Assembly: GCA_946186455.1 (NCBI GenBank)
Contig: CAMHNK010000003.1
Span: 1 to 41,085, forward strand
From: an uncultured Candidatus Saccharibacteria bacterium
GTDB lineage: Bacteria; Patescibacteriota; Saccharimonadia; Saccharimonadales; Saccharimonadaceae
Length of the DNA: 41,085 nucleotides
Direction: 5' to 3'
The notes under the pieces are model-generated. The model was not told where the DNA came from. It saw only the letters and a program-made list of their open reading frames with translations, and searched no databases. The stretch's first letter is position 1. The number at the start of each line of letters is the position of its first letter. This document shows positions 16,506 through 39,404 of the stretch, in pieces. Made by a program: the position numbers and the translations under genes.

Positions 16506-17042
16506 ATGAAATGTCAAAATAACTTAGCCTCTGAATACGACAAATCTGCTATTATTAAGCAGCTTCTTTCGCATGAAGTCGCCACTGTTCCAACCGAGAC
16601 GGTGGAAGGCTATGCTGTCCTTTTAGATGACAAAATCGCCATCAATAAACTGATGGAGCTAAAGAATCGCGGATTTGAATCTGGTAAAGTTTTTACACTT
16701 GTGCCAAAGAATAAATCGGATATCAAAAAATACGTTATCGTTCCAGAAGGTGCTAAGGAATTAATCAAGAAGTATGTTCCAGGTGAAATCACCCTAATCC
16801 TCCCGAAGAATCCGGATTTCAAAAATTACTATTTTGACCACTTTAATACCATTGGCATCCGCATCCCAGATCACGATTTTTACGAAGAAATCTTAAAAGA
16901 AGTCGGCCCAATGCTTCTAACATCGGCCAACCCGCGTGGCGGCACGCCGAAATCCATCACCGGTCACCTGCCATCCACTATCGTGGACTTCACCGGTGAT
17001 TCCCCTAAAATCATTCGACAAGGTAACCTAAAAGTGCTATAA
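16506..17042 (+). CDS. tsaC: Sua5/YciO/YrdC-family threonylcarbamoyl-AMP synthase
   Basis: The 178-residue protein is a single YrdC domain. Landmarks are VPTETVEGYAV at about residues 28-38 (family form PTETVYGLA), LKNRGFESGKVFTLVP where the KRxxxKP-like substrate loop normally lies, a central PGEITLILPK, and LLTSANPRGGTPKS near 136-149. TsaC makes threonylcarbamoyl-AMP for the t6A modification of tRNA position 37. The PTETVEGY and KNRGFESG forms differ from the consensus, so it may be a divergent paralogue. The gene is probably leaderless, and its stop codon lies within the -10 box of leuS. Confidence 0.85.
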   Translation: MKCQNNLASEYDKSAIIKQLLSHEVATVPTETVEGYAVLLDDKIAINKLMELKNRGFESGKVFTLVPKNKSDIKKYVIVPEGAKELIKKYVPGEITLILPKNPDFKNYYFDHFNTIGIRIPDHDFYEEILKEVGPMLLTSANPRGGTPKSITGHLPSTIVDFTGDSPKIIRQGNLKVL

Positions 17043-19520: not shown

Positions 19521-20759
19521 AATTACTTTGCTATATATATTTAAAAATTTATCTATTGTCTTTTCGAGATCGTGCTCAGCCGCGATTTCGAGTGATGCTT
19601 TACTGTATTTCTTCTGTAATTCCTTATCAGACAATATATTATATATACTATCCGAAATCTGCTCCACATTTTTTGGTTCACATAAGAATCCGTTTTTGCC
19701 AGTAATACATACTTCTGACACTGCACCAGCATTTACGGCAATCAGTGGCAAACCTGAAGCAGCCGCTTCAATTAACACAATTCCCTGCGTCTCAATTTCG
19801 CTTGCCGTTGCAAACACATCACCAACTCGATACAACTCATAAAGATCCGGTTGTAGTACCCGACCAAGAATCCGAATCGATTTCAGGACCCCGAGTTTTT
19901 TCACATTTTGCTCAATCCTAAGCCTATCCACGCCATCACCAACTATCACAAGTTGTGCTTCTGGCAGTTTCTCTAACACTTTCGAGAACGCATCCACTAC
20001 TAATCCAACTTTCTTCTCCGGGTCAACCCGCCCAACATATACTACGGTTGGTACGTTTTTACGAATTTTATATTTCTCGTAAATCTCATCCGAAGCTTTG
20101 CCTGGTTTGAAATTCGACAAATCTACGCCGTTCGACACCGCTGCGACCGGTACCTTGAATTCTTTTTTCCGTGACAAAATCAAATTCTCAATTGCTTGTT
20201 TGGTCGGCATCGTCACAAAATCACTTTTCTTCTGGCGACTATAAAAATACGAAGACAACATTGCATCAACCGGTTTTTTAATCAGCTTTGGCATATGAAG
20301 CGGTTCCGTAAATACTTCCGGCTGATTATGTTCCGTTGTCACCACCGGCACGTTCATTTTTCTAGCATATGATACTACCGATAGTCCAATCGGATCAGAA
20401 ACCTGCACATGCACCACGTCCGGCTTAAATGCCTTCATGATTTTCTTAATTTGGCGCGCCGGAAAAACTGACACTCTAAGACTATGCTTATAGAATAGGT
20501 GCGGCATTTCCTTGCCAAGTAGTTTTTTCTTCGCCGGTACATCATGTATTTGGTCTGGATATACTCTTGCCTGCGTTGACTTTAAATAATGCACCTTTAC
20601 ACCATCTTCAGTCTTCGAATGATTCTTACCGGTCTGGCTTGGGCAAATCACCGCGACTTCATTACCACGCTGGGCTAGTCCCGTCGCCAAGTTATGCGAG
20701 AAAACCGCCACACCATTTACCATCGGGTAGTAGACGGCAGTAGCGATTAAAACTCTCAT
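19506..20759 (-). CDS. GT4-family glycosyltransferase
   Basis: The 417-residue protein has a GT-B fold. The N-terminal half starts MRVLIATAVYYPMVNGVAVF, a typical GT4 acceptor-domain start with a glycine-rich turn. The C-terminal half has VVYVGRVDPEKKV at about residues 247-259, LVIVGDG near 277 and the ExFG/E-x7-E region as EIETQGIVLIEAAASGLPLIA near 327-347. It most resembles enzymes that build glycolipids or mannosides from nucleotide-sugars. It has no signal peptide and probably acts at the inner membrane face. Its ATG overlaps the stop of the S41 protease gene by one base, so the two are translationally coupled. Confidence 0.92.
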   Translation of the reverse strand: MRVLIATAVYYPMVNGVAVFSHNLATGLAQRGNEVAVICPSQTGKNHSKTEDGVKVHYLKSTQARVYPDQIHDVPAKKKLLGKEMPHLFYKHSLRVSVFPARQIKKIMKAFKPDVVHVQVSDPIGLSVVSYARKMNVPVVTTEHNQPEVFTEPLHMPKLIKKPVDAMLSSYFYSRQKKSDFVTMPTKQAIENLILSRKKEFKVPVAAVSNGVDLSNFKPGKASDEIYEKYKIRKNVPTVVYVGRVDPEKKVGLVVDAFSKVLEKLPEAQLVIVGDGVDRLRIEQNVKKLGVLKSIRILGRVLQPDLYELYRVGDVFATASEIETQGIVLIEAAASGLPLIAVNAGAVSEVCITGKNGFLCEPKNVEQISDSIYNILSDKELQKKYSKASLEIAAEHDLEKTIDKFLNIYSKVIGSTK

Positions 20760-21952
20760 TATAGCTCCTTTGCTTTATCCAGTTGCGGATCACGCATCGC
20801 ATTAATATCTTCGTACGAGCGCTCAACTTCAATATCTGGAGTAATACCAGTCTTATTGATTGAGCGTTCTTTTGGCGAATACCATTCTGCAATCGTTGAC
20901 TTCAAAGTGCCACCGTCCGAAAGATTATACAGACCTTGCACCACGCCTTTACCGTAAGTCTTCTCACCGACGATAGTTGCCAGTCCATAGTCTTGAAGTG
21001 CACCAGCTGTAATCTCCGCTGCCGAAGCGGTCGAACCATTTACAAGCACCACTGTCTTCATGCTTCTTAGAATTGCTTTGCCAGAAGATGTTTTCGTCTC
21101 AGTATTACCATAATGTTTCGATTTTTGAATCACGACTGTCTGGTTGTCAACCCAAAGCGAAACTAAATCTGCCGCTGCGGATACATAGCCGCCACCATTA
21201 TTGCGAAGATCAAGAATCACCTTCGTAATATTACGCTTCAAGAACTCCTGCGCCATTGTCTGAACTTTTTTACCGGTGTCCTCGTCAAATCTCGTAATCG
21301 TAACAATTGCGGTCGAGCCATCATATTCTACATAGGCCGAAACATTATTAATTACTTCGCGCGTCAAATCAAACGATAATTCTTTACCGTTTCTAACTAC
21401 AGTTACTTTCACCTTCGACCCAGTTTCGCCGCGGATTTTGAGAGCGACTTCGTCAGCCGTCAAACTCCAAACTTCTTCATCATCAACCTTAAAGATGATA
21501 TCACCTGCTAGAATTCCGGCCTTACGAGCCGGGTTGTCTGGGAGCGTTCTTAAAACTCTCACATATCCATCGCGCACACCAACTTCTACACCAATACCAG
21601 AGCCAACATTACCATGCAAATCATCATAAAATTCCTTGCTGACTTCTGCGTTCATGTAAGTAGTATATGGATCACCGAGCGCTTCAACTAAGCCCTTCTT
21701 TGCACCTTCAATAATATCGTTTTTATCAATATCACCATTAAAAGTCGTCGAAAGCTGATTATAAACTTCATTAAGTGGCGACCAGTCCATGTCAGAAATC
21801 TTGCGATTAGTAATACCGAGATATGGTGCAAAATTATTAAACCAAGTTTCCCAGTTCATCCCGACAAAAACACCAAGCACTGCCATTACGGCACCGATAA
21901 TTATGGCGTTGCCAAGACTAGTCTTTTTCTCTCTCCACTCTATTTTCTTCAT
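20759..21952 (-). CDS. ctpA: S41-family C-terminal processing protease (CtpA type)
   Basis: The 397-residue protein has one N-terminal membrane helix at about residues 14-32. A PDZ domain at about 115-195 includes GSGIGVEVG and NPARKAGILAGDIIFKVDDE. The S41 domain has the serine nucleophile region NGSTASAAEI at about 306-315 and the catalytic lysine Lys335 in GEKTYGKGVVQ. Such enzymes are anchored outside the membrane and trim or degrade exported proteins; in Gram-positives some cut proteins linked to division or sporulation. The gene follows the CHAP hydrolase and precedes the glycosyltransferase. A TGC-TATAAT box lies 6 bases before the ATG, so a leaderless internal transcript is likely. 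Confidence 0.94.
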   Translation of the reverse strand: MKKIEWREKKTSLGNAIIIGAVMAVLGVFVGMNWETWFNNFAPYLGITNRKISDMDWSPLNEVYNQLSTTFNGDIDKNDIIEGAKKGLVEALGDPYTTYMNAEVSKEFYDDLHGNVGSGIGVEVGVRDGYVRVLRTLPDNPARKAGILAGDIIFKVDDEEVWSLTADEVALKIRGETGSKVKVTVVRNGKELSFDLTREVINNVSAYVEYDGSTAIVTITRFDEDTGKKVQTMAQEFLKRNITKVILDLRNNGGGYVSAAADLVSLWVDNQTVVIQKSKHYGNTETKTSSGKAILRSMKTVVLVNGSTASAAEITAGALQDYGLATIVGEKTYGKGVVQGLYNLSDGGTLKSTIAEWYSPKERSINKTGITPDIEVERSYEDINAMRDPQLDKAKEL

Positions 21953-27377: not shown

Positions 27378-28334
27378 TTAAAACTCCTTCAAGAAATTAA
27401 GGTTACCAGATTCAAAATGGCGCACGTCTTTCAGCCCATACCGGAGCATCACTAGGCGGTCAATTCCGCCACCCCATGCGAAGCCGTGATACTTTGTCGG
27501 ATCAATGCCGGCCATCTTTAATACATTCGGATGAATCATGCCACATCCCAACATTTCGAGGAAATCACCTTTTTTGCCACCAAGCGACTTTGGTTTTTCA
27601 ATCATAAATTCGAGTGATGGTTCCGTAAATGGGAAGTAGCCCGGCTGGGTGCGAATGTTAAGTTTCTGCTCGTAATATTTCTCGAAGAATTCACGCAAGA
27701 TCCCAAGCATGTTACCAAGCGTACAATCTTTCGACACAAACACGCCCTCACATTGATAAAAGGTGTGCTCGTGCGTCGCATCAACATCTTCATTACGATA
27801 CACACGACCTGGCACCACTACAGCGATGTCTTTCCCTTCGTCCAAATTGTGTTTGTAGGCCTTGAGCACGCGATGTTGCATCGTGGAAGTGTGGGCTGGC
27901 GGAATCAGACCTTCTTCCGTACGGAAGGTGTCATAACCATCGCGAGCCGGATGCTCTTTCGCGAAATTAAGGCTATCAAACATATGGAACTCATCATCAA
28001 GTTGGCGGGATTCGACTACGTCAAAACCCATGAGTTGGTAGATTTCGGTGACACGATCAAGCTCGGTCATCAGTGGGTGCTCTGAACCTTCAAAGACGGA
28101 ATAGACTTCTGGCAAAGGCTCATTGCTAGAACAAGGCGCCGTAATATCAAGTGGCACCACGTCCGCATCAAGCAATGCTTCCTCAGCCTTTTTAATCCTT
28201 TCTAATATTGCATTTTTCTTGGCATTTAATTCACGACCAAACTCGCCACGCTTCTCGGCCGGAACCTCTTTTATTTTAGCGTATTCGCTATTTAAGCTCT
28301 TTAATTCGAGCTTTAATTTCTCCAACTCTTCCAT
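27378..28334 (-). CDS. pheS: Phenylalanyl-tRNA synthetase alpha subunit
   Basis: The 318-residue class II synthetase subunit begins with a short coiled-coil arm. Motif 2 reads GRVYRNEDVDATHEHTFYQCEG near residues 177-198 (given in part) and motif 3 has GFAWGGGIDRLVMLRYG near 284-300. The N-terminal arm is short compared with E. coli. It charges phenylalanine onto tRNA-Phe together with PheT. It is likely leaderless: a TATAAT box lies 7 bases before the ATG and contains the stop codon of the preceding 984-residue gene. Confidence 0.96.
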   Translation of the reverse strand: MEELEKLKLELKSLNSEYAKIKEVPAEKRGEFGRELNAKKNAILERIKKAEEALLDADVVPLDITAPCSSNEPLPEVYSVFEGSEHPLMTELDRVTEIYQLMGFDVVESRQLDDEFHMFDSLNFAKEHPARDGYDTFRTEEGLIPPAHTSTMQHRVLKAYKHNLDEGKDIAVVVPGRVYRNEDVDATHEHTFYQCEGVFVSKDCTLGNMLGILREFFEKYYEQKLNIRTQPGYFPFTEPSLEFMIEKPKSLGGKKGDFLEMLGCGMIHPNVLKMAGIDPTKYHGFAWGGGIDRLVMLRYGLKDVRHFESGNLNFLKEF

Positions 28335-28341
28335 ATATTAT

Positions 28342-28347
28342 ATTATA
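28342..28347 (-). promoter_or_regulatory. -10 box for leaderless pheS, containing the upstream gene's stop codon
   Basis: TATAAT at 28342-28347 on the minus strand; its TAA (28343-28345) ends the 984-residue gene. The -35 is weak. The pheS ATG follows after 7 bases. Confidence 0.65.
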
Positions 28348-31297
28348 CTACAAAAACGCGGTTTCTAACATCGGCAAATGAGATTGCATTGGTCAGAATA
28401 ATGGCCGGTGCTTCAGCCACATAATTTTCAGTGTCAAAGAGAATTTGATTCGGCATCACCACTTCTGGTTCACCGAATTGGTGGCGGGTGGTCGGATCGT
28501 AATCGGCAATGTAATTTGCAAGTTCCAAATAGTTCAAAACAGCAACAACCTGATCCTTCTGAAGACCAGAGTATCTCGCAAGAATACCTTCGTAAGTATT
28601 ATCGAGAGGATGTTCTTCGTAGTATTCTTCAAGAAATGCCGTAACAGCAGATTTTTCAATAACGCCCATTGTTTCTGCAAGAGATTGGTCCTCAAAGAAT
28701 CTTTGATAGAGCTTTGCTCTCTCCCAATTAGGTGATTTTGCAGCGTTCACATCATTACCGGCAACACACGATTCACCACTAATATAACCAATCCCTTCGA
28801 GCGCCTCAACAGATTGGAACATATCGACAATGTCTCCAAAGACCGGAACTGCACCAATGGCAGCATTTGCAACTGAATTAAGCTTACCATTTTTCGTTCT
28901 TACTCTAGCCCAGTTTTGCAAATCATCGGCGATATTTTGGTCAGCAACACCAAAAGTAGACTCCCTGTTATTACAATAAAGCATATATTTGGCGAGATCG
29001 GAATTCCCCGCAATTTTAACATTGCCATCAGACGTTAATTCATCTGCAAACTGGTCTTCACCAATCTCGTTAATAATTTGCGCAGGATCTTCGTTAATGG
29101 TAGTAATATCCGTTATCGCATATGGATTACAGAAGGCATCACCTATTGCGCCAATCGAAGCAAGATAAGGGCAAGTTTTTTTGTACTCTTCTAAATCTGG
29201 CAAGTTTTTCGCAATACTGCTAGCAGTAGCAGTTGGGGAAAGTGAAGCGATAGAAGAAGAGAGTACGTTTGTGCTAGTCGAAATAGCACTCATGACAGAG
29301 CTTGTAGACAAGAAGCTCATAAATTGCGTTATTAATGAGCCCATAAAAGTATATTTAGAAGTGATATCAAATGGGCTACGATTCATCCGCTCCAACCTCG
29401 CATTTTCGGCAATTACCTCCTGCTGCGCGACCGCAAACTCGACATATTTCTCTTGCGTAGCTAGAGATCCACCATTTGATCTATGATTATTACCCATAAC
29501 CATATTACCACCAGAAGTCAATGCATTACCCAAATCTTCTCCACCGATATCAGATATCAAATCTCGAGTAAGAATATTAGTAAGTACAGGCGTAATAACG
29601 GCAACTATTGCGCTAATTGCAACCGTAGCAGCAACGCCAAGTGCAATACTCGTACCAATATCACCAAGCAACGGCAAACAAGTCGCAATCGATGCGCCAA
29701 AAGTAAATAGCGCGCCCACAAGCCCAGCAAAGCAAGTTCCAATTTCAGCAATCTTTATACCAGCAGATACGAGATTAGTAGCCGCTTTAGCGATCATACA
29801 AGTCTCAAACACATCAGTCCTAGATGTGAACGAAAGCATGTTTGAAGAAACGTTAAAGCTCTTTACGCTAGGGTCTTTCGTATTAATTTTGGTTCCCTGA
29901 AAAACTGCAGCAAATCCCTCAGATTCCATTGCGGTTTTCTCAGAAGAAGACTCATCCGTAGTATTCCCAAAAATAGATATATGAGTATTCTTCCGTCTTT
30001 CATTTAGTGCATCTGTTAAATCAGTCAGTGGTGATTCGTCGCCAAGGCCAGCCTTAGTTTTATCTACAGCTTCAGTGTATCCAGAAATAAGATTAATAAT
30101 CTGAAGAGCCTCGGCAGCGGAAGCCATCAAACTAAGTGCACCCAAGAAATTGACACCGGCGCAAGTAACATTTACTACCTTTTGTGCTGTACCAGCACCT
30201 TTATTTGCTCCTTCAAATTTCTTTTTAACATTATCAACAATGTCGCCGACTAATTCAGGGTTTGCTTTAATCTGAGCACGACTTATTCTGCCTTTACCAC
30301 TAGACGCCGGAGCACCTAAATGCTGATCTTCAACAACATCGTGGACTGTTCTACTTACGCCATCTTCGCCAACCTCAGTTCTCTCATAATCCTGATCCTC
30401 TGCAGTAGCCATTTTTGAACCGGGCTCTTCTATAGAATCTGTACCTTCAGCCATTTTTTCCAAAGCATATCTTCTAGTATTACCGGCTTCTGCTCTATTT
30501 GTTTTTTCTATAAAATCCTTAAACATATTTCTAGTAATTCTGTTTTTTGAAAGAAACTTTGCGGTAACACTACTAAACCAGTTAGATATTGCCCCTCGCC
30601 AAGTCATTGATCCTTGATTATATCCGTTAAAAAAGTCCGGATTATCCCTATATGCCGTTTTAAAATCAATCGCATCACCACCAACTCTACCGATATCGTC
30701 AGGGTCCGCTACAATGGTTTTAATTGTGCCACTCCCATCATCAAACCTCAAAACAGTGGTTCCATTTACCTCATCCACTTCAATGCCTTGTTTTGCTAGT
30801 CTGTTTCGCTGCTTAGGAGTAATTTTAAACGTATCATTACCGAAGACGTGCCCTTTAATTGGGTTGGCGTATTTCCCCTTGCCCATCTGCATCTTAAAAA
30901 ACACATCCGATCTCTTATTGGTGGAAACATGCATAGAATTATATAGCTCTCTAAGATTTTCAACTAAAGCAAATGGTTGGAAAAACTGTGTACCGGCCAT
31001 CAATCCACCGCACCCCATTATAAGTGCGATAATTAATCCAATCGGCCCCTTACTTTTAAGAAAACTCTTGCCTTTTCCCTTACCTTTAACAGAAATTAAC
31101 TCACGACCAGTCCCAGTATAAAACCCATTCGCGGCCGCTTCGTTTGCGCGGTTCGCATCAAGATTATCACCGGTCTCTTTCGGCTTATCCGAAGCTGCGC
31201 CAGCTTCAACTGCACGCAAACCTCTCGCGGCTTCATTATTAGCCGCGTCAATCTTAGGAATATCATTCCGTTGCGCCGGTTTAGACCTATCGTCCAT
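28343..31297 (-). CDS. Large Gly/Ala-rich membrane protein of unknown function, 984 residues
   Basis: I do not recognise a family. Visible layout: a polar cytoplasmic N-terminus ending in a Gly/Lys run (residues 1-83); a membrane helix at about 86-105; a polar region with a cluster resembling small alpha/beta folds (about 150-240); a hydrophobic segment at about 375-405; a strongly hydrophobic, glycine-zipper-like block at about 505-577; a Ser/Thr-rich helical segment at about 650-695; and a soluble C-terminal third. Nine cysteines lie in or after the first helix. The arrangement suggests a surface or membrane-inserting protein. Transport, secretion-apparatus or pore-forming roles are all possible and none is shown. 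It is preceded by its own -10 and is probably leaderless. Confidence 0.9.
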   Translation of the reverse strand: MDDRSKPAQRNDIPKIDAANNEAARGLRAVEAGAASDKPKETGDNLDANRANEAAANGFYTGTGRELISVKGKGKGKSFLKSKGPIGLIIALIMGCGGLMAGTQFFQPFALVENLRELYNSMHVSTNKRSDVFFKMQMGKGKYANPIKGHVFGNDTFKITPKQRNRLAKQGIEVDEVNGTTVLRFDDGSGTIKTIVADPDDIGRVGGDAIDFKTAYRDNPDFFNGYNQGSMTWRGAISNWFSSVTAKFLSKNRITRNMFKDFIEKTNRAEAGNTRRYALEKMAEGTDSIEEPGSKMATAEDQDYERTEVGEDGVSRTVHDVVEDQHLGAPASSGKGRISRAQIKANPELVGDIVDNVKKKFEGANKGAGTAQKVVNVTCAGVNFLGALSLMASAAEALQIINLISGYTEAVDKTKAGLGDESPLTDLTDALNERRKNTHISIFGNTTDESSSEKTAMESEGFAAVFQGTKINTKDPSVKSFNVSSNMLSFTSRTDVFETCMIAKAATNLVSAGIKIAEIGTCFAGLVGALFTFGASIATCLPLLGDIGTSIALGVAATVAISAIVAVITPVLTNILTRDLISDIGGEDLGNALTSGGNMVMGNNHRSNGGSLATQEKYVEFAVAQQEVIAENARLERMNRSPFDITSKYTFMGSLITQFMSFLSTSSVMSAISTSTNVLSSSIASLSPTATASSIAKNLPDLEEYKKTCPYLASIGAIGDAFCNPYAITDITTINEDPAQIINEIGEDQFADELTSDGNVKIAGNSDLAKYMLYCNNRESTFGVADQNIADDLQNWARVRTKNGKLNSVANAAIGAVPVFGDIVDMFQSVEALEGIGYISGESCVAGNDVNAAKSPNWERAKLYQRFFEDQSLAETMGVIEKSAVTAFLEEYYEEHPLDNTYEGILARYSGLQKDQVVAVLNYLELANYIADYDPTTRHQFGEPEVVMPNQILFDTENYVAEAPAIILTNAISFADVRNRVFVV

Positions 31298-31304
31298 ATA
31301 ATAT

Positions 31305-31310
31305 ATTATA
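31305..31310 (-). promoter_or_regulatory. -10 box for the leaderless 984-residue gene
   Basis: TATAAT at 31305-31310 on the minus strand lies in an AT-rich palindromic stretch, 7 bases before the ATG. A TTCAAA -35-like element lies about 17 bases upstream. Confidence 0.5.
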
Positions 31311-31350
31311 TAGCACTTATGCTAAATTTTGAAGCGTTTTCAAACTAAAA

Positions 31351-31608
31351 TTATCGCTGCTGAGTCAAAAGATAAATGACTACAATAACAATCGCTACAA
31401 CACCAACAATGGTGCAAACCACCCAAAGCCAAGCATATTTCTGAGTTTCTTTCATATCGCGGACATAATCAGAATCTTCCACTAAATCAGGATCTTTTTT
31501 ATTGCCATCTTGCTTCGATGTCTTATTCATTTTTTCACGCAAGTCTGCATTAATTCGACGCGAAAGTTCATCCGTCACATCATCTTTTTTACTTACCATT
31601 ATGCCCAT
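31351..31608 (-). CDS. Small tail-anchored membrane protein, 85 residues
   Basis: No family recognised. The first 55 residues are highly charged and polar (many Lys, Asp and Glu); one membrane helix lies at about residues 59-81, and only a few residues follow (TQQR). This is a tail-anchored layout with the bulk in the cytoplasm. The start is the first ATG with GGGA about 8 bases before it; a second ATG three codons on is possible. It lies upstream of the 984-residue gene on the same strand, so the two may act together, and it shares a two-way promoter region with the aquaporin-like gene. Confidence 0.78.
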   Translation of the reverse strand: MGIMVSKKDDVTDELSRRINADLREKMNKTSKQDGNKKDPDLVEDSDYVRDMKETQKYAWLWVVCTIVGVVAIVIVVIYLLTQQR

Positions 31609-31695: not shown

Positions 31696-32625
31696 ATGGC
31701 AACAAAAAAGCCTAAGGCATCGTCTAAGACTACGAAGTCCAAAACGACCAAGCCAAAAACTGCCGCGAAGACTGTCACAAAGCCAGTGTCCGAGGCCTCT
31801 AAAACACAAACGGTGGAGAGAGAAGTTATCACTTCAACAAAAGGTAAATCTATCTTTAGTGGTTTCTTCGCAAGAAAATATGAAGAAAAAGAAAGCATCT
31901 TGACTGTGTTCAAGAATCACAAGTTCTACGGCGCATTGCTCGGCGAAGTGCTTGGTTCAATGCTCATCACATTGTTCCTCTTCGCACTCGGCCTTATGGG
32001 CGTGGCAAGTGTTGCTAACTATTCATTCTTGATCCTAGCAGTCTTCATTGCAATCTACTCACTTTCAGGCGCCTGCCTCAACCCAATCATCACGGTTGGC
32101 ATGATGGCTTCCCGCCGCATCTCAGTCATTCGTGGCGTGATGTATCTCATCGCTCAGGTGCTCGGTGCCTGGCTCGGTTGGGTCATCTTCAACGCCTTCC
32201 ATTTGGCTGGCGGCGAAACCGCCTACGAAATTCCAAAGATGACCGCAATTGGCGAGAACCAATTCTGGGTCTTCGCAATGATTGAGCTTCTTGGTGCAAT
32301 CGTGATCGCATTCTTCTTTGCTCGCGCTCTCAAATACAAGCGCAGCGTCTTTACTTTCGCAGCAACCACTGCTGGTGGTATTGTTCTTGCAATGCTCATT
32401 GGCTTCGTTGTTTCAGCCGCTTTCGTCGGCGTCCAAAACAACTTCGTCTACAACCCAGCAGCTGCATTAATGTTCCAAATCTTCCCAGAATCTGGTGATA
32501 ACTTTGGCGCAGTTCTTGGCGGTATTTGCCAAGCGCTCTCAGTCTATGCATTGCTCCCAATGATTGGTGGCGTAGTAGGTTTCTACCTCTCCGACTTCAT
32601 GGGTAAGCTTTCCGGCGAAGAGTAA
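31696..32625 (+). CDS. Aquaporin/glycerol-facilitator family (MIP) channel, atypical filter
   Basis: The 309-residue protein has about 50 N-terminal residues dominated by Lys, Thr, Ser and Ala, then six membrane helices and two half-helices in MIP order. The first NPA box is NPI (residues 129-131, SGACLNPIITVGM) and the second is NPA (253-255, VYNPAAALMF). The conserved glutamates in helices 1 and 4 (GEVLGS, IELLGA) are present. The arginine that normally follows the second NPA and lines the selectivity filter is replaced by alanine. It should pass water or small neutral solutes across the membrane, but the spectrum may be unusual. AAGGAGG Shine-Dalgarno sequence, terminator downstream. Confidence 0.88.
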   Translation: MATKKPKASSKTTKSKTTKPKTAAKTVTKPVSEASKTQTVEREVITSTKGKSIFSGFFARKYEEKESILTVFKNHKFYGALLGEVLGSMLITLFLFALGLMGVASVANYSFLILAVFIAIYSLSGACLNPIITVGMMASRRISVIRGVMYLIAQVLGAWLGWVIFNAFHLAGGETAYEIPKMTAIGENQFWVFAMIELLGAIVIAFFFARALKYKRSVFTFAATTAGGIVLAMLIGFVVSAAFVGVQNNFVYNPAAALMFQIFPESGDNFGAVLGGICQALSVYALLPMIGGVVGFYLSDFMGKLSGEE

Positions 32626-34869: not shown

Positions 34870-34898
34870 AGTTTACCATTAATGCTTATTTTTGTTAA
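34870..34898 (-). promoter_or_regulatory. Promoter for the Pro/Ala-rich gene
   Basis: TTAACA (34893-34898) and TAAACT (34870-34875) on the minus strand are 17 bases apart, with TGG before the -10. The -35 overlaps the stop codon of the preceding gene. Confidence 0.7.
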
Positions 34899-37800
34899 TA
34901 CCTCGGTGCGATTTCGTGGGTATAGACTGCTGTCAGATTCTTGTGTTCGTTATTTGGATCTGACTTTGCTCTACCCCAAAGAATCGTCGAAGTATCGTAA
35001 TTCACAATTTCGGCCGGAACTTTCGAATTCACGCCGGTCGCCGCACCGTACGTACGGTTAAAGAACAATTTATTTGTAATGATTGCGCCATTCACTTGCA
35101 AGCGATATGAGTTCTGTCTAGAATTAATGTCATTCGATTCACAAGTGCTCAGATCATTCTCAGCGATAATAATCGCATCAATTCGTCTGACCGTACAACC
35201 AATCTTAATATTATTCGCATAAATAATCACCTTCGGAATCTGGTCGAGCGCCGTGAAGGTCGAACTCTGATACTGAATATTGCCATTAATCGTCAAGTCG
35301 CCAGCCACATTAATAATATGCGTTCTGCCAACATTCACAGTGTTCGCGTTAATCGTCGCATTGCCGTTCACATTGTACCTTACGATATTCTTCGCTGAAC
35401 TATTGTTAATCGTAATCGTCGAGCCACCGGAAAGCTCATTGACTAGGCTGTCCTCATTCGGCAGTTGCCCAATTAGCGACTTCTGATTTGATAGCACGGC
35501 CGAGATTCCGGAATTACCAGTTACCTGTGCCCCCGGACAGATACCAGATACGATGTTACTAGCGTAGTTTGCTAAGCTGAGCGGCACCCGATATTTACAG
35601 TAGTCCGACGCTGGCTCTTGCGAGCCACCCCCTGCGATGTTATTAGCAAGACCGGAAGCGGCACCTGATGCGAGAGCGAGGATCGTACCATTAGCCGTTA
35701 CGCTTTGCTCAACCCATGACGAGAAGACAAACACGCCACTAAATGCCGGAAGATTCTTCAAATTATTCTTAATCGCGGCAGAAGTCTTAATCGTACCACC
35801 AGAATACAGGCTACCACCCCAAACTTGGAAACTCGGACGCTTTGCAATCAGGAAACATTTCGATTCGGAAATCCGCCAAGTTTTGCTACCTTCTTTTTCA
35901 TTCCAGTTGGTATAAGCACCACTGTATGCTGGGTAAGTTGCCACGGCCACACAAATGTAGGTTCCGGCCTTTTGATCCGGCACGCTCATTTTGAGCTCAC
36001 GATTGTAAGCAATACCATCAAGTCTACCCGTCGTGTTGAGCGGGCTGTTTTCCTCATTATCATAACGACAATTCACATCATCCTTAGTTAGCCCGAAGTA
36101 TCTACAAACATCCTGCGTCTTACCATTACCCCAACTATCCGCGGCGTTTTTCACGCCATTAAGTGGTGTGTAAATAATGATACGCCCTAAGAATTCCGGC
36201 ACAATCGTTGCATACTTTTGCGCATCGGAACCATCCGTCGTTTCCGGATTCTTGCGCGGAACCACGTCGATTTCATATTCAATCTTCTTGTCTTCACCAG
36301 CATAAACTGGATCGGTATTGTCGGTCTTAATCTTGAGCGCCATATCAAAGTTATACGGAACATAAGCGTGTGCGATGCTCGTCTTGCTTGTCGTGCTAAC
36401 ATTAGCGAGGTTATCTTTTGCCGTGCTATAAGACGTAAAGGTCACTTGGCTTGGCGACATCGCCGTCGCGTTCGATTTAGTAATGTTCGTCGTCACCGAC
36501 TCACCCAAATCCTTACCTACTTCCGAAATCGTCACGCGGTGAGTATTAACTTCTTTTTGCTTATCCGTTTTACCAAGATTATAATAATGTGGCGTCGAAT
36601 AGCTAAATGAGCCGTTGCTATGTACCATGATGGCATTATTCCAACTATTATTATTGCCACGGTTTTGGTTAAACAGCTGATATAGATAGTAATAAGTATT
36701 TAACGAGCCGGTCGGCTTAACCGCACCACCATCAATTTGCAACCTTTGCGGCACGAGATAAGTCGTGTATTGGAGAATCGGGTTATAAGTTGCACGATAT
36801 GAAATAGTATTACCCGGCTTCGCGTAAACCGCCTTCTGATACTTATGATATTTAGTCGGACCATCTGGGTTCTTCACGCGCATATCGAGGAAGGCATCGC
36901 TGAGTTGGTCGTCCTCCATCGTCGTCGGATCATTCGTCGGGTCATCCGGTTGCGCCTTACCCAGCGCCGAAGCACAAAGCTTGAGTGAAGTGTAAGCCGG
37001 CGGCGTTACATAGTTATTATTCGGTTTGAATTGTAAAATCTCACAAACCACCTGCCCAGGTTTCAAAGTCAAATTATTGTCCGTGAGTACCTGGTGCGGG
37101 TTCCTCGTAAAGTATTCTTCGCCACTACCAAGATTGTTATTTGCCGTGACAGTCGAGGAATAGTTTGAAGTACGCGAAATTACATAATTAGTCGAACCGG
37201 TACCAGCCGTGCGCCTAAGATTATGGTTAAACGAAACCGTACATCCCGTCACCGGACAGTTGTCGATATTCTTTACCACTGTCTTACTCGCATCGGTCCA
37301 ATCCACGGTGTCACTACCAGATGGTGTCGTTACATTAATCTTACCCTGGAAGGTTGATGGTTTAGCATAGGCGCAAGCCTTGACTGTTACATTACCATTC
37401 CCCTTCGGGCTAAATACAACATAATAGCACAAGGTCTCACCCGGGCGAATCGATTCTACATATGGATTTCGATAGGCCGATCGTAGCCACACGCTAAGCG
37501 TTGAACCAGACGTACTTGGTGCAAACGGAGCCGCCGGATTAGTCGTCTGCTGATACGCAGAACCACCAGTTATTTGCCGGTAAACCACAAAGTTTACATT
37601 ACCTTCACCTTTTTCTAGCTTCATCGCAATATCAAAGGCTACATCACAACCCGAATTCGGACAATCTATCTGGATATTCTGCGTCGCGTCTCGCTGGGAG
37701 AAACCAGTACCAGTCCCACTTATCGAACTACCACCGGATACCCTCGCTCGCGCCGAGAATTCCTGATGCTGATAAATCGCATAAACTGTCTGATTACTCC

Positions 37801-38863
37801 AAAGTGCCGTCACCGCGTACGTTATATTGGTCGAAATATATGAAGAGCTACTTAGACTACTCTTCCAGCCCACAAAAGTATACGCTGCCGCCGTTCGCCG
37901 CGTGATTGCGGCATAGTACCCTTCTTCCACCGTATTTGTTACATTGGACATCAAATTCCGAAGCGAATTACCATCCGTATCGTACGCAATACCAGTCAAA
38001 GTATATTCCTTGTATTCATGATACACGGCGTACATTGTGGCGTCACTATACATATACTGGCCCCACCAAGTATCCGTCGACGCATAATACGAATCATTCT
38101 TCCGGTACTTCCAACCCTTAAATATATAATTGGTCTTCTCACGACGATACACATAAGTATAATTTCCTTCTTCCACTGTACTTGTCACGTCACGAATAAT
38201 GTTTCTCAGTGAATTACCATTTTCGTCCACCGCCACCGCTGTCAAAGTATATTCTTTTACTTGTGGCTGAACTTCTTCCACCGAACTTGGACCACAGAAC
38301 CAACCCAGGTTACTACCATAGCCCCAACCAGATCTAAAAGTGTTTGGATCTTGCGCTTGGAGTGCCAAATAAATCTCTCGTACGTCTTCCCACCTACCAT
38401 CATTCCAGTTATAACCATACGCATACTTCATCGGCCCACCAAAGAAGACCGAATAGTACGAGCCTGTACCAATCGAGCTAATACCACGCTGATCGTACTG
38501 ATCATACGAATAGCCACAGTTCCAGTTGCTATAGCCTCTCTGTGCCACCCAGGCATAACGCCAATAGCCACCATAATCACCGCAACCTCTAATATGGCCG
38601 CCGGCTGCCACACCATCCTCTTGACAAGTGTTATCGTCCACGGTACCGCTAATACGAATATCATTTGAAGAGGTTGAATACCAACGCCAAACCGCACCAA
38701 AACATGTCGCAAGCACCAAGCTCTGACAACCCGGAACACCACCATAACCACCACCATAACCTTCACCGGCTTGCACCGACCCAATCATGACGGTACCAGA
38801 AACAATAAACGAAATAAAACCACCAATCAGAATTGCCCAAATTCTTTTAATGCTGGTTTTCAT
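34895..38863 (-). CDS. Large secreted multidomain surface protein, 1322 residues
   Basis: A signal peptide (residues 1-32, cut after VQA) is followed by a Gly/Tyr/Trp/Cys-rich domain (about 33-195). Two InlB B-repeat-like units follow (203-283 and 285-365, each with KEYTLT...EEGxY...F.GWK...YAxY). Next is a duplicated domain of about 130 residues with a CPxxGC motif (about 370-502 and 506-636). Further beta-rich domains follow, then a C-terminal part with short Asn/Ile/Gly repeats (about 1130-1250) that looks like a parallel beta-helix. There is no LPXTG motif or C-terminal membrane helix, so attachment is unclear. The ATG at 38863 has AGGGGG upstream; a GTG two codons earlier is an alternative. 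It overlaps the end of the preceding gene. Confidence 0.9.
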   Translation of the reverse strand: MKTSIKRIWAILIGGFISFIVSGTVMIGSVQAGEGYGGGYGGVPGCQSLVLATCFGAVWRWYSTSSNDIRISGTVDDNTCQEDGVAAGGHIRGCGDYGGYWRYAWVAQRGYSNWNCGYSYDQYDQRGISSIGTGSYYSVFFGGPMKYAYGYNWNDGRWEDVREIYLALQAQDPNTFRSGWGYGSNLGWFCGPSSVEEVQPQVKEYTLTAVAVDENGNSLRNIIRDVTSTVEEGNYTYVYRREKTNYIFKGWKYRKNDSYYASTDTWWGQYMYSDATMYAVYHEYKEYTLTGIAYDTDGNSLRNLMSNVTNTVEEGYYAAITRRTAAAYTFVGWKSSLSSSSYISTNITYAVTALWSNQTVYAIYQHQEFSARARVSGGSSISGTGTGFSQRDATQNIQIDCPNSGCDVAFDIAMKLEKGEGNVNFVVYRQITGGSAYQQTTNPAAPFAPSTSGSTLSVWLRSAYRNPYVESIRPGETLCYYVVFSPKGNGNVTVKACAYAKPSTFQGKINVTTPSGSDTVDWTDASKTVVKNIDNCPVTGCTVSFNHNLRRTAGTGSTNYVISRTSNYSSTVTANNNLGSGEEYFTRNPHQVLTDNNLTLKPGQVVCEILQFKPNNNYVTPPAYTSLKLCASALGKAQPDDPTNDPTTMEDDQLSDAFLDMRVKNPDGPTKYHKYQKAVYAKPGNTISYRATYNPILQYTTYLVPQRLQIDGGAVKPTGSLNTYYYLYQLFNQNRGNNNSWNNAIMVHSNGSFSYSTPHYYNLGKTDKQKEVNTHRVTISEVGKDLGESVTTNITKSNATAMSPSQVTFTSYSTAKDNLANVSTTSKTSIAHAYVPYNFDMALKIKTDNTDPVYAGEDKKIEYEIDVVPRKNPETTDGSDAQKYATIVPEFLGRIIIYTPLNGVKNAADSWGNGKTQDVCRYFGLTKDDVNCRYDNEENSPLNTTGRLDGIAYNRELKMSVPDQKAGTYICVAVATYPAYSGAYTNWNEKEGSKTWRISESKCFLIAKRPSFQVWGGSLYSGGTIKTSAAIKNNLKNLPAFSGVFVFSSWVEQSVTANGTILALASGAASGLANNIAGGGSQEPASDYCKYRVPLSLANYASNIVSGICPGAQVTGNSGISAVLSNQKSLIGQLPNEDSLVNELSGGSTITINNSSAKNIVRYNVNGNATINANTVNVGRTHIINVAGDLTINGNIQYQSSTFTALDQIPKVIIYANNIKIGCTVRRIDAIIIAENDLSTCESNDINSRQNSYRLQVNGAIITNKLFFNRTYGAATGVNSKVPAEIVNYDTSTILWGRAKSDPNNEHKNLTAVYTHEIAPRY
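36956..37756 (-). repeat. Tandem duplicated four-cysteine domain (within the 1322-residue protein)
   Basis: Two units of about 130 residues share the order CPxxGCxVxF, then a YxxxRxxxx strand, then PGxxxCxxxxFxPxxN, and end in KxCAxA. Copy 1 spans about residues 370-502 and copy 2 about 506-636. DNA identity between copies looks low, so this is an old duplication. Confidence 0.7.
37769..38257 (-). repeat. Two tandem InlB B-repeat-like units (within the 1322-residue protein)
   Basis: Units at residues 203-283 and 285-365 share KEYTLTxxAxDxxGNSLRN, TVEEGxY, TFxGWK-like and YAxY blocks. These are small beta folds seen in many bacterial surface proteins. Confidence 0.78.
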
Positions 38864-39404
38864 TGTCACATCCCCCTTCTATACATCCATAATAGTCTTT
38901 ATGTGCCTGCACGGACAAAGCCTCATACTCTTCCGCTTTTTCCGTCTCGCCTAAATCTCTATATACTACCGCATAAGTATGGTAAAAATGTTCCCGTTGT
39001 CTTTCTGGCACTTCCGGAAAATTCACCTTATCGAGCTCTTTTAACGCCTCTTCGTAATATCCAAATTCATCCTTGTCTAACTCTTGAATATACGCTAGCA
39101 AAAATTCGTATTTGTATTCGCGGTTCTCGCACTGCTCCGAATAAGCTTGGAGTAAATCTAGCTCCTCACTTTCGGATTTTTGCATTGCACTCGTAATTGC
39201 ATTACTTACTTCGCTAAGATCTTTAAAATTACAATCAACCTTACCAATCTCTGGTGCTTTTGGACGGAAGAAATTAATGTAAATCAGTCCACCAGAAAGA
39301 CCGATGATTGCCACAATAAAGAAAATCAAAAACCCATATAAAATGAAGTTGCTTTGTTTTTTCTCTACCTCAACTGGTACAGAACCACTCTCTCCCACGT
39401 CCAT
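38847..39404 (-). CDS. Single-pass membrane protein with helical repeat-like outer domain, 185 residues
   Basis: No family is recognised with certainty. Residues 1-20 are polar and cytoplasmic, one membrane helix lies at about 23-46, and the rest is an acidic, helix-rich domain outside the membrane. Around residues 125-172 paired helices (YYEEALKELDKV; YAVVYRDLGETEKAEEYEALS) look like tetratricopeptide-type repeats. Four cysteines (including the last two in the C-terminal CIEGGCD) could form disulfides outside. Its end overlaps the start of the 1322-residue secreted protein by 17 bases, so they are probably made together. Its own -10 is 6 bases before the ATG. Confidence 0.85.
   Translation of the reverse strand: MDVGESGSVPVEVEKKQSNFILYGFLIFFIVAIIGLSGGLIYINFFRPKAPEIGKVDCNFKDLSEVSNAITSAMQKSESEELDLLQAYSEQCENREYKYEFLLAYIQELDKDEFGYYEEALKELDKVNFPEVPERQREHFYHTYAVVYRDLGETEKAEEYEALSVQAHKDYYGCIEGGCDNENQH

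Follow-up and report, generated by a model that had tools for sequence, protein, structure and literature searches.

A 984-residue, probable envelope protein of an uncultured Saccharibacterium is a hydrolase-less relative of proteins encoded directly after virB4

Here, we report that a 984-aa protein encoded in a 41,085-nucleotide stretch of DNA from an uncultured Candidatus Saccharibacteria bacterium (the window) belongs to a family whose members are encoded directly after virB4 in type IV secretion system (T4SS) loci of the order. To judge from sequence, members of the family most likely serve in the envelope, facing the host, as a subunit that belongs to the essential T4SS or descends from it. 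For the window protein we think it moderately probable that it is a paralogue of a constant Saccharibacterial T4SS component and acts as a non-catalytic, host-facing variant subunit, diversified by replacement at its locus. The T4SS is essential for epibiotic growth on the host in S. epibionticum (PMC10633639), and peptidase and lysozyme homologues encoded right after virB4 have been reported as essential (PMC12102498); that peptidase is probably a family member. Neither a cargo nor a wall-opening mechanism is shown in the cited T4SS literature. The finding bears on how ultrasmall epibionts breach thick Actinobacterial host walls, and on host range: a locus-constant protein with exchangeable wall-cutting ends, encoded next to a PrgK-like lysozyme, is a concrete and testable candidate, to which the window copy adds paralogues that have no enzyme and undergo replacement at one fixed site.

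The gene occupies 28343..31297 on the minus strand, and its assignment draws on the open reading frame, the family and a profile match. It is flanked by pheS (27378..28334, minus strand; Pfam tRNA-synt_2d, 2.9e-72) and, 53 bp away on the same strand, by a gene for an 85-aa protein (31351..31608), beyond which lies a MIP-family channel gene (31696..32625, plus strand; Pfam MIP, 8.8e-13). Coordinates, strand and lengths of both reading frames agree with a preliminary description of this DNA, which was also right to call the 85-aa protein tail-anchored, as a single hydrophobic segment lies at its C-terminus (residues 55-85, Kyte-Doolittle 3.2). The longer frame is not a chance one: 128 of the 199 genomes of the window's taxonomic family have homologues, frequently more than one each, and members of the genus keep the gene order. 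Searches of Pfam, NCBIfam, PHROGs and PDB sequences gave zero matches for the 984-aa protein, which agrees with the earlier statement that it fits no family known to that reader. A weak Pfam match to DUF4112 (E 0.28) was under the cut-off and was dropped, a weak PDB match to CagX (E 0.41) was taken as chance, and Rfam matched nothing in the window. Elsewhere in the window, a 1324-aa frame (34895-38869, minus strand) has no Pfam domain above the cut-off and no PDB sequence match.

The protein carries an N-terminal transmembrane anchor that had been overlooked (residues 84-107; 30977..31048, minus strand). Identified from hydrophobicity and the homologue alignment, it follows a Lys-rich tail, and almost every one of 66 homologues shares its position in the alignment. 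The strong hydrophobic block described earlier at 505-577 is found at residues 509-582, with a peak Kyte-Doolittle value of 2.46. Hydrophobicity, the homologues and an AF2 model (pTM 0.77) point to a hydrophobic helical hairpin at residues 509-577 (29567..29773, minus strand); the model has helices at 494-526 and 551-577, with low confidence over 511-557. The glycine zipper proposed for this block did not hold up, given 0 GxxxG pairs in residues 505-577 and small-xxx-small pairs at the level of shuffles (P = 0.30), nor is the protein unusually rich in glycine (8.4%) or alanine (10.9%). Two further hydrophobic segments had been suggested: the one near 375-405 is there, as a weaker stretch at 373-405, and at 650-695 nothing rises above the threshold. 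Conservation in the 66 sequences defines a family motif, SPFDxTSxxTF(L/M)GS (residues 641-653; 29339..29377, minus strand), in which P642 and D644 are invariant and F651 and G653 nearly so. Three cysteine pairs, C379/C500, C709/C723 and C775/C844 (residues 379-844; 28766..30163, minus strand), are likely disulfides and so probably extracytoplasmic. C379 and C500 occur together in 53 of the 66 sequences and are jointly missing from 13; for C775 and C844 these counts are 48 and 18. In neither of these two pairs does one partner ever occur alone. Residues 885-984 (28346..28645, minus strand) form a C-terminal module that is exchangeable in the family, as indicated by the AF2 model and by the enzymes of virB4-adjacent homologues. 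Here it is helical (AF2 helices at 884-895, 902-910 and 914-931), with an Arg-rich, YADVRNRxFAV-like end and no enzyme domain by Pfam.

From these features we infer a family topology with the N-terminus in and the body out. The N-terminal tail is Lys-rich and hence would be inside. The wall-cutting ends of relatives must lie outside and the cysteine covariation fits disulfides, which argues for a body outside the cell. Hence, residues 509-577 should cross the membrane as a hairpin or lie in it, and 373-405 should not cross.

Profile matches to the family occur in three other families of the order, and when 381 genomes of the phylum were searched by profile, matches fell within the order only, at the level of sequence similarity. 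A plasmid or phage origin was considered and rejected, tblastn against 72,556 records of plasmids and 50,697 of phages giving 0 matches. The settings of the homologues in 42 neighbourhoods fall into few types, the commonest being a T4SS locus beside dnaA-dnaN-recF. Its typical order is VirB6/TrbL, PrgI, a TraC/TrsD-like protein, VirB4, the body family, a phage-type lysozyme and small membrane proteins, with T4SS pilins nearby. Because searching with the 984-aa protein itself biases the neighbourhoods, loci were also picked by VirB4 alone: VirB4 was searched for in the order (130 of 149 genomes) and the gene after it was read. All 35 usable loci obtained in this way outside the window's genus encode a protein of 787-1535 aa directly after virB4, and the family gene is mostly followed by a gene for a PrgK (VirB1)-like lysozyme and by recF. 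The common body consists of the N-terminal membrane anchor, paired cysteines, the hydrophobic hairpin and a SPFDxTSxxTFLGS motif. Many of the virB4-adjacent proteins are <20% identical to one another, and outside the window's family many are joined mainly by position and profile, at ~15% identity. VirB4 is 80-84% identical across genera; set against VirB4 at ~80%, an identity of 15-30% marks the neighbour as the likely host-facing part.

Some loci vary on this plan. L073 and L135 (G104) have VirB6-PrgI-TrsD-VirB4, two inserted ABC-exporter genes, a family member with a lysozyme, and a second lysozyme adjoining recF, an arrangement that is possibly an intermediate. At L130:490-4298 (G024), VirB2-like pilin genes form an array of seven, of which one encodes 412 aa, and the T4SS lysozyme protein at L045:6448-8250 is modular, combining a phage-lysozyme domain, a GDSL lipase and a weak NlpC/P60-like end.

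The window protein is linked to the locus members by profile and by shared residues. Aligned with hhalign, the off-locus paralogues, window protein included, match the 35 virB4-adjacent proteins with a probability of 98.8 (E 1.4e-16), compared with 0.3 for a reversed control, and the window protein carries the family features P642, D644, F651, G653, C379/C500, C709/C723 and C775/C844. Its gene is not virB4-adjacent: it sits between the 85-aa gene and pheS and is a paralogue, not a locus member. The window genome encodes VirB4, PrgI, VirB6 and pilins. The T4SS contig of this genome stops 107 bp past virB4, so that a further copy may lie there, although related genomes have none at this place; across the window's genus other genes follow VirB4 and no family member adjoins it (L183-L186). 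A second family member in the window genome, of 752 aa, lies beside recF, and in the genus the origin-proximal place retains only this 752-aa type (L076-L084). The earlier proposal of an apparatus protein, perhaps in host contact or transfer, therefore survives at the level of the family, whose virB4-adjacent homologues are constant in the Saccharibacterial T4SS locus; over the body, no characterised family is matched, and members are common across the order, so neither of the findings named beforehand as counting against the proposal was made.

Family members vary in their C-terminal ends. Domains seen in the family are M23, VanY/M15, M14, M74, amidase, NlpC/P60, GDSL and Exo_endo_phos; members scanned singly within the window's taxonomic family gave M23, VanY/M15, NlpC/P60, Amidase_2 and M14. 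Among the 35 virB4-adjacent proteins across the order we found VanY in 10, M23 in 3, Exo_endo_phos in 2, and GDSL, M14, M74 and M15_4 in 1 each. The Exo_endo_phos and GDSL ends, carried by A9 members (L160-L199), mean that the variable domains are not only peptidases. An enzyme end is present in at least 17 of the 35 virB4-adjacent proteins compared with 0 of 35 off-locus paralogues, window copy included (Fisher P 1e-6, with phylogeny ignored), and some virB4-adjacent members are also without a recognised enzyme. Wall peptidases of solved structure, such as LytM, lysostaphin and LdcB, were found as matches to the M23 and VanY ends. Several M23 ends keep the HxxxD and HxH residues and one (L088) has lost the first; as the LytM domain of PrgK is degenerate and regulatory (PMC11323569), the M23 domain of the family need not be active. 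An AF2 model of an M23-tipped relative (pTM 0.67) has a similar order of body elements to that of the window protein, judged by secondary-structure strings. The two diverge past one helix (858-877 in the window protein, 824-847 in the relative): in the window protein three more helices and then a disordered tail follow, in the relative a beta-rich domain.

The closest known systems include the PrgK/VirB1-like hydrolases of Gram-positive T4SSs (pCF10), which are likewise membrane-anchored extracellular wall hydrolases with genes that come right behind virB4. A LytM (M23-type) domain is found in PrgK (PMC11323569) and in part of the family. However, the family lacks sequence or profile similarity to PrgK, its body is unlike PrgK, and the 35 off-locus paralogues, among them the window copy, have no hydrolase domain by Pfam; the PrgK homologue in these loci is the neighbouring lysozyme protein (96.9%). 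The T4SS cluster of S. epibionticum, SEML1_0006-0019 (PMC10633639, PMC12102498), is the same locus type by dnaA/dnaN/recF and shares PrgI, the TrsD-like protein, VirB4, VirB6 and a pilin array, but the window copy lies outside such a cluster. In those two papers we found no description of the shared body, of tip exchange or of relocated enzyme-less paralogues. Patescibacterial T4SSs have been described as related to the monoderm MPF-FATA class, mostly relaxase-less and often near dnaA (PMC12102498); a search for a body homologue in characterised Gram-positive T4SSs found none. With polymorphic toxins and modular effectors the family shares a constant N-terminal part and exchangeable C-terminal domains, although the window copy has no recognised enzyme. 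It differs from them in having an N-terminal membrane anchor, mainly wall peptidases as tips and one constant gene per T4SS, with no adjacent immunity gene: the window neighbours are the 85-aa core gene and pheS.

In the mechanism that we favour, a T4SS component encoded right after virB4 would be anchored by a single N-terminal transmembrane helix, with a disulfide-held body outside the cell that bears the hydrophobic hairpin and a C-terminus that displays an exchangeable tip where the cell meets the host bacterium. At the T4SS locus the tips would mostly be wall-cutting enzymes (M23, VanY/M15, amidase, M14, M74), and tip and neighbouring PrgK/VirB1-like lysozyme together could make way for the secretion conduit through the peptidoglycan. 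Within the window's genus, the T4SS has moved away from the replication origin, the 752-aa member having stayed by recF and others having been inserted at the pheS site. The tip of the window copy, helical with an Arg-rich end, may bind or position rather than cut, and this copy would diversify through replacement at its locus; of all parts of the scheme, the role of this enzyme-less copy is the least certain.

The pheS site has the gene order MIP, 85-aa gene, (984-aa gene), pheS, pheT throughout the genus, and the large gene is its variable part. Of 20 loci sampled, 7 have the large gene and ~10 lack it, and in the latter the 85-aa gene stands directly before pheS. At the syntenic locus, identity to the window protein is 25-52%, with pheS at 78-89%. 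The syntenic copies fall in four separate places in the tree, and a single origin is rejected by the AU test on a 37-row version of the alignment (p 4.4e-6). On this sequence evidence, different members of the family have arrived at the pheS site on at least four occasions within the genus. In some genus genomes without a copy at this site (L055:12727-14517, L093 and L046), family members lie near a cutinase plus von Willebrand A protein and a P-type ATPase, and L055 has two family members in tandem.

Four other explanations were weighed. The suggestion that the 984-aa and 85-aa proteins form an undescribed two-component system, made on the strength of adjacent genes on one strand 53 bp apart, now looks very improbable: all 60 genus genomes have the 85-aa gene, about half of the loci sampled have it beside pheS with no large gene, and similarity to the window's 85-aa protein is no lower at loci with a replaced large gene. 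Being universal and often without the 984-aa gene, it is a genus core gene and not an obligate partner, and the window copy is better read as a relocated paralogue of a T4SS gene than as half of an independent system. A structural T4SS channel subunit of VirB6 or VirB8 type, as opposed to a tip carrier, is improbable. The constant slot after virB4 indeed corresponds to the one that orf15 (VirB6 type) occupies in Tn916 and trsF in pSK41, and TrbL/VirB6, TrsF and Orf15 are large membrane proteins of the same clusters. However, a genuine VirB6/TrbL protein is encoded separately in these loci, no profile similarity connects the family to VirB6, TrsL, TrsF or Orf15, and one anchor plus one hairpin is not a polytopic core; a hypervariable, enzyme-carrying end is also unlike such subunits.

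Two further explanations concern the role of the protein at the host, and both are unlikely, the first of them slightly more so. The protein could be an effector delivered by the T4SS, its hairpin entering the host membrane and its Arg-rich end or tip acting in or on the host. This would suit a conserved hairpin with few other membrane segments, C-terminal domains that vary (two Exo_endo_phos and one GDSL included), fast evolution and copies scattered over the genome. It accords poorly with an N-terminal anchor conserved in place, with a virB4-adjacent copy that is a single constant locus gene and not dispersed cargo, and with tips that mostly cut peptidoglycan, which is external to the host cytoplasm. 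Alternatively, it could be a surface adhesin or antigen that has lost its T4SS role and diversified by exchange at the pheS locus, as replacement at the locus, absence in many congeners and the missing enzyme would allow, along with relatives in another genus that adjoin a ricin-B lectin protein. Yet a recognised binding domain is absent, and the motifs and cysteines shared with the T4SS-locus members argue for a shared body function.

A broader extension of this subunit reading, which is tentative, is that a T4SS contact-face protein with interchangeable warheads sets which host envelopes can be opened, and that the window's genus uses freed, enzyme-less, wholesale-replaced variants as host-range determinants. 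Within it, the warheads would be mainly wall peptidases and sometimes phosphatase/nuclease-like or lipase-like, a point that we hold equally loosely.

Paralogues of the family in another genus (L044:13491-15818; also L041, L042, L058, L061 and L072) lie divergent beside a gene for a secreted protein, which has ricin-B-type lectin repeats in the one scanned and, by eye, LGFP-like repeats in another.

Upstream of the 984-aa gene, a TATAAT at 31305..31310 (minus strand), 7 nt before the ATG, is a putative promoter of the leaderless type; TATAAT or TATACT stands at the same position in almost all syntenic homologues. A special shared promoter motif (HTAAGTRNTATAMTAT) was rejected, its genome-wide matches equalling those of the reversed-pattern control. 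TATAAT near the ATG is general in this genome (15 of 54 genes checked). It often takes the form TGnTATAAT and ends 6-8 nt before the ATG at window positions 16506, 17052, 20759-21952, 28334, 31297 and others, and in L034 and L075; this placement suggests that leaderless mRNAs are frequent in the window genome.
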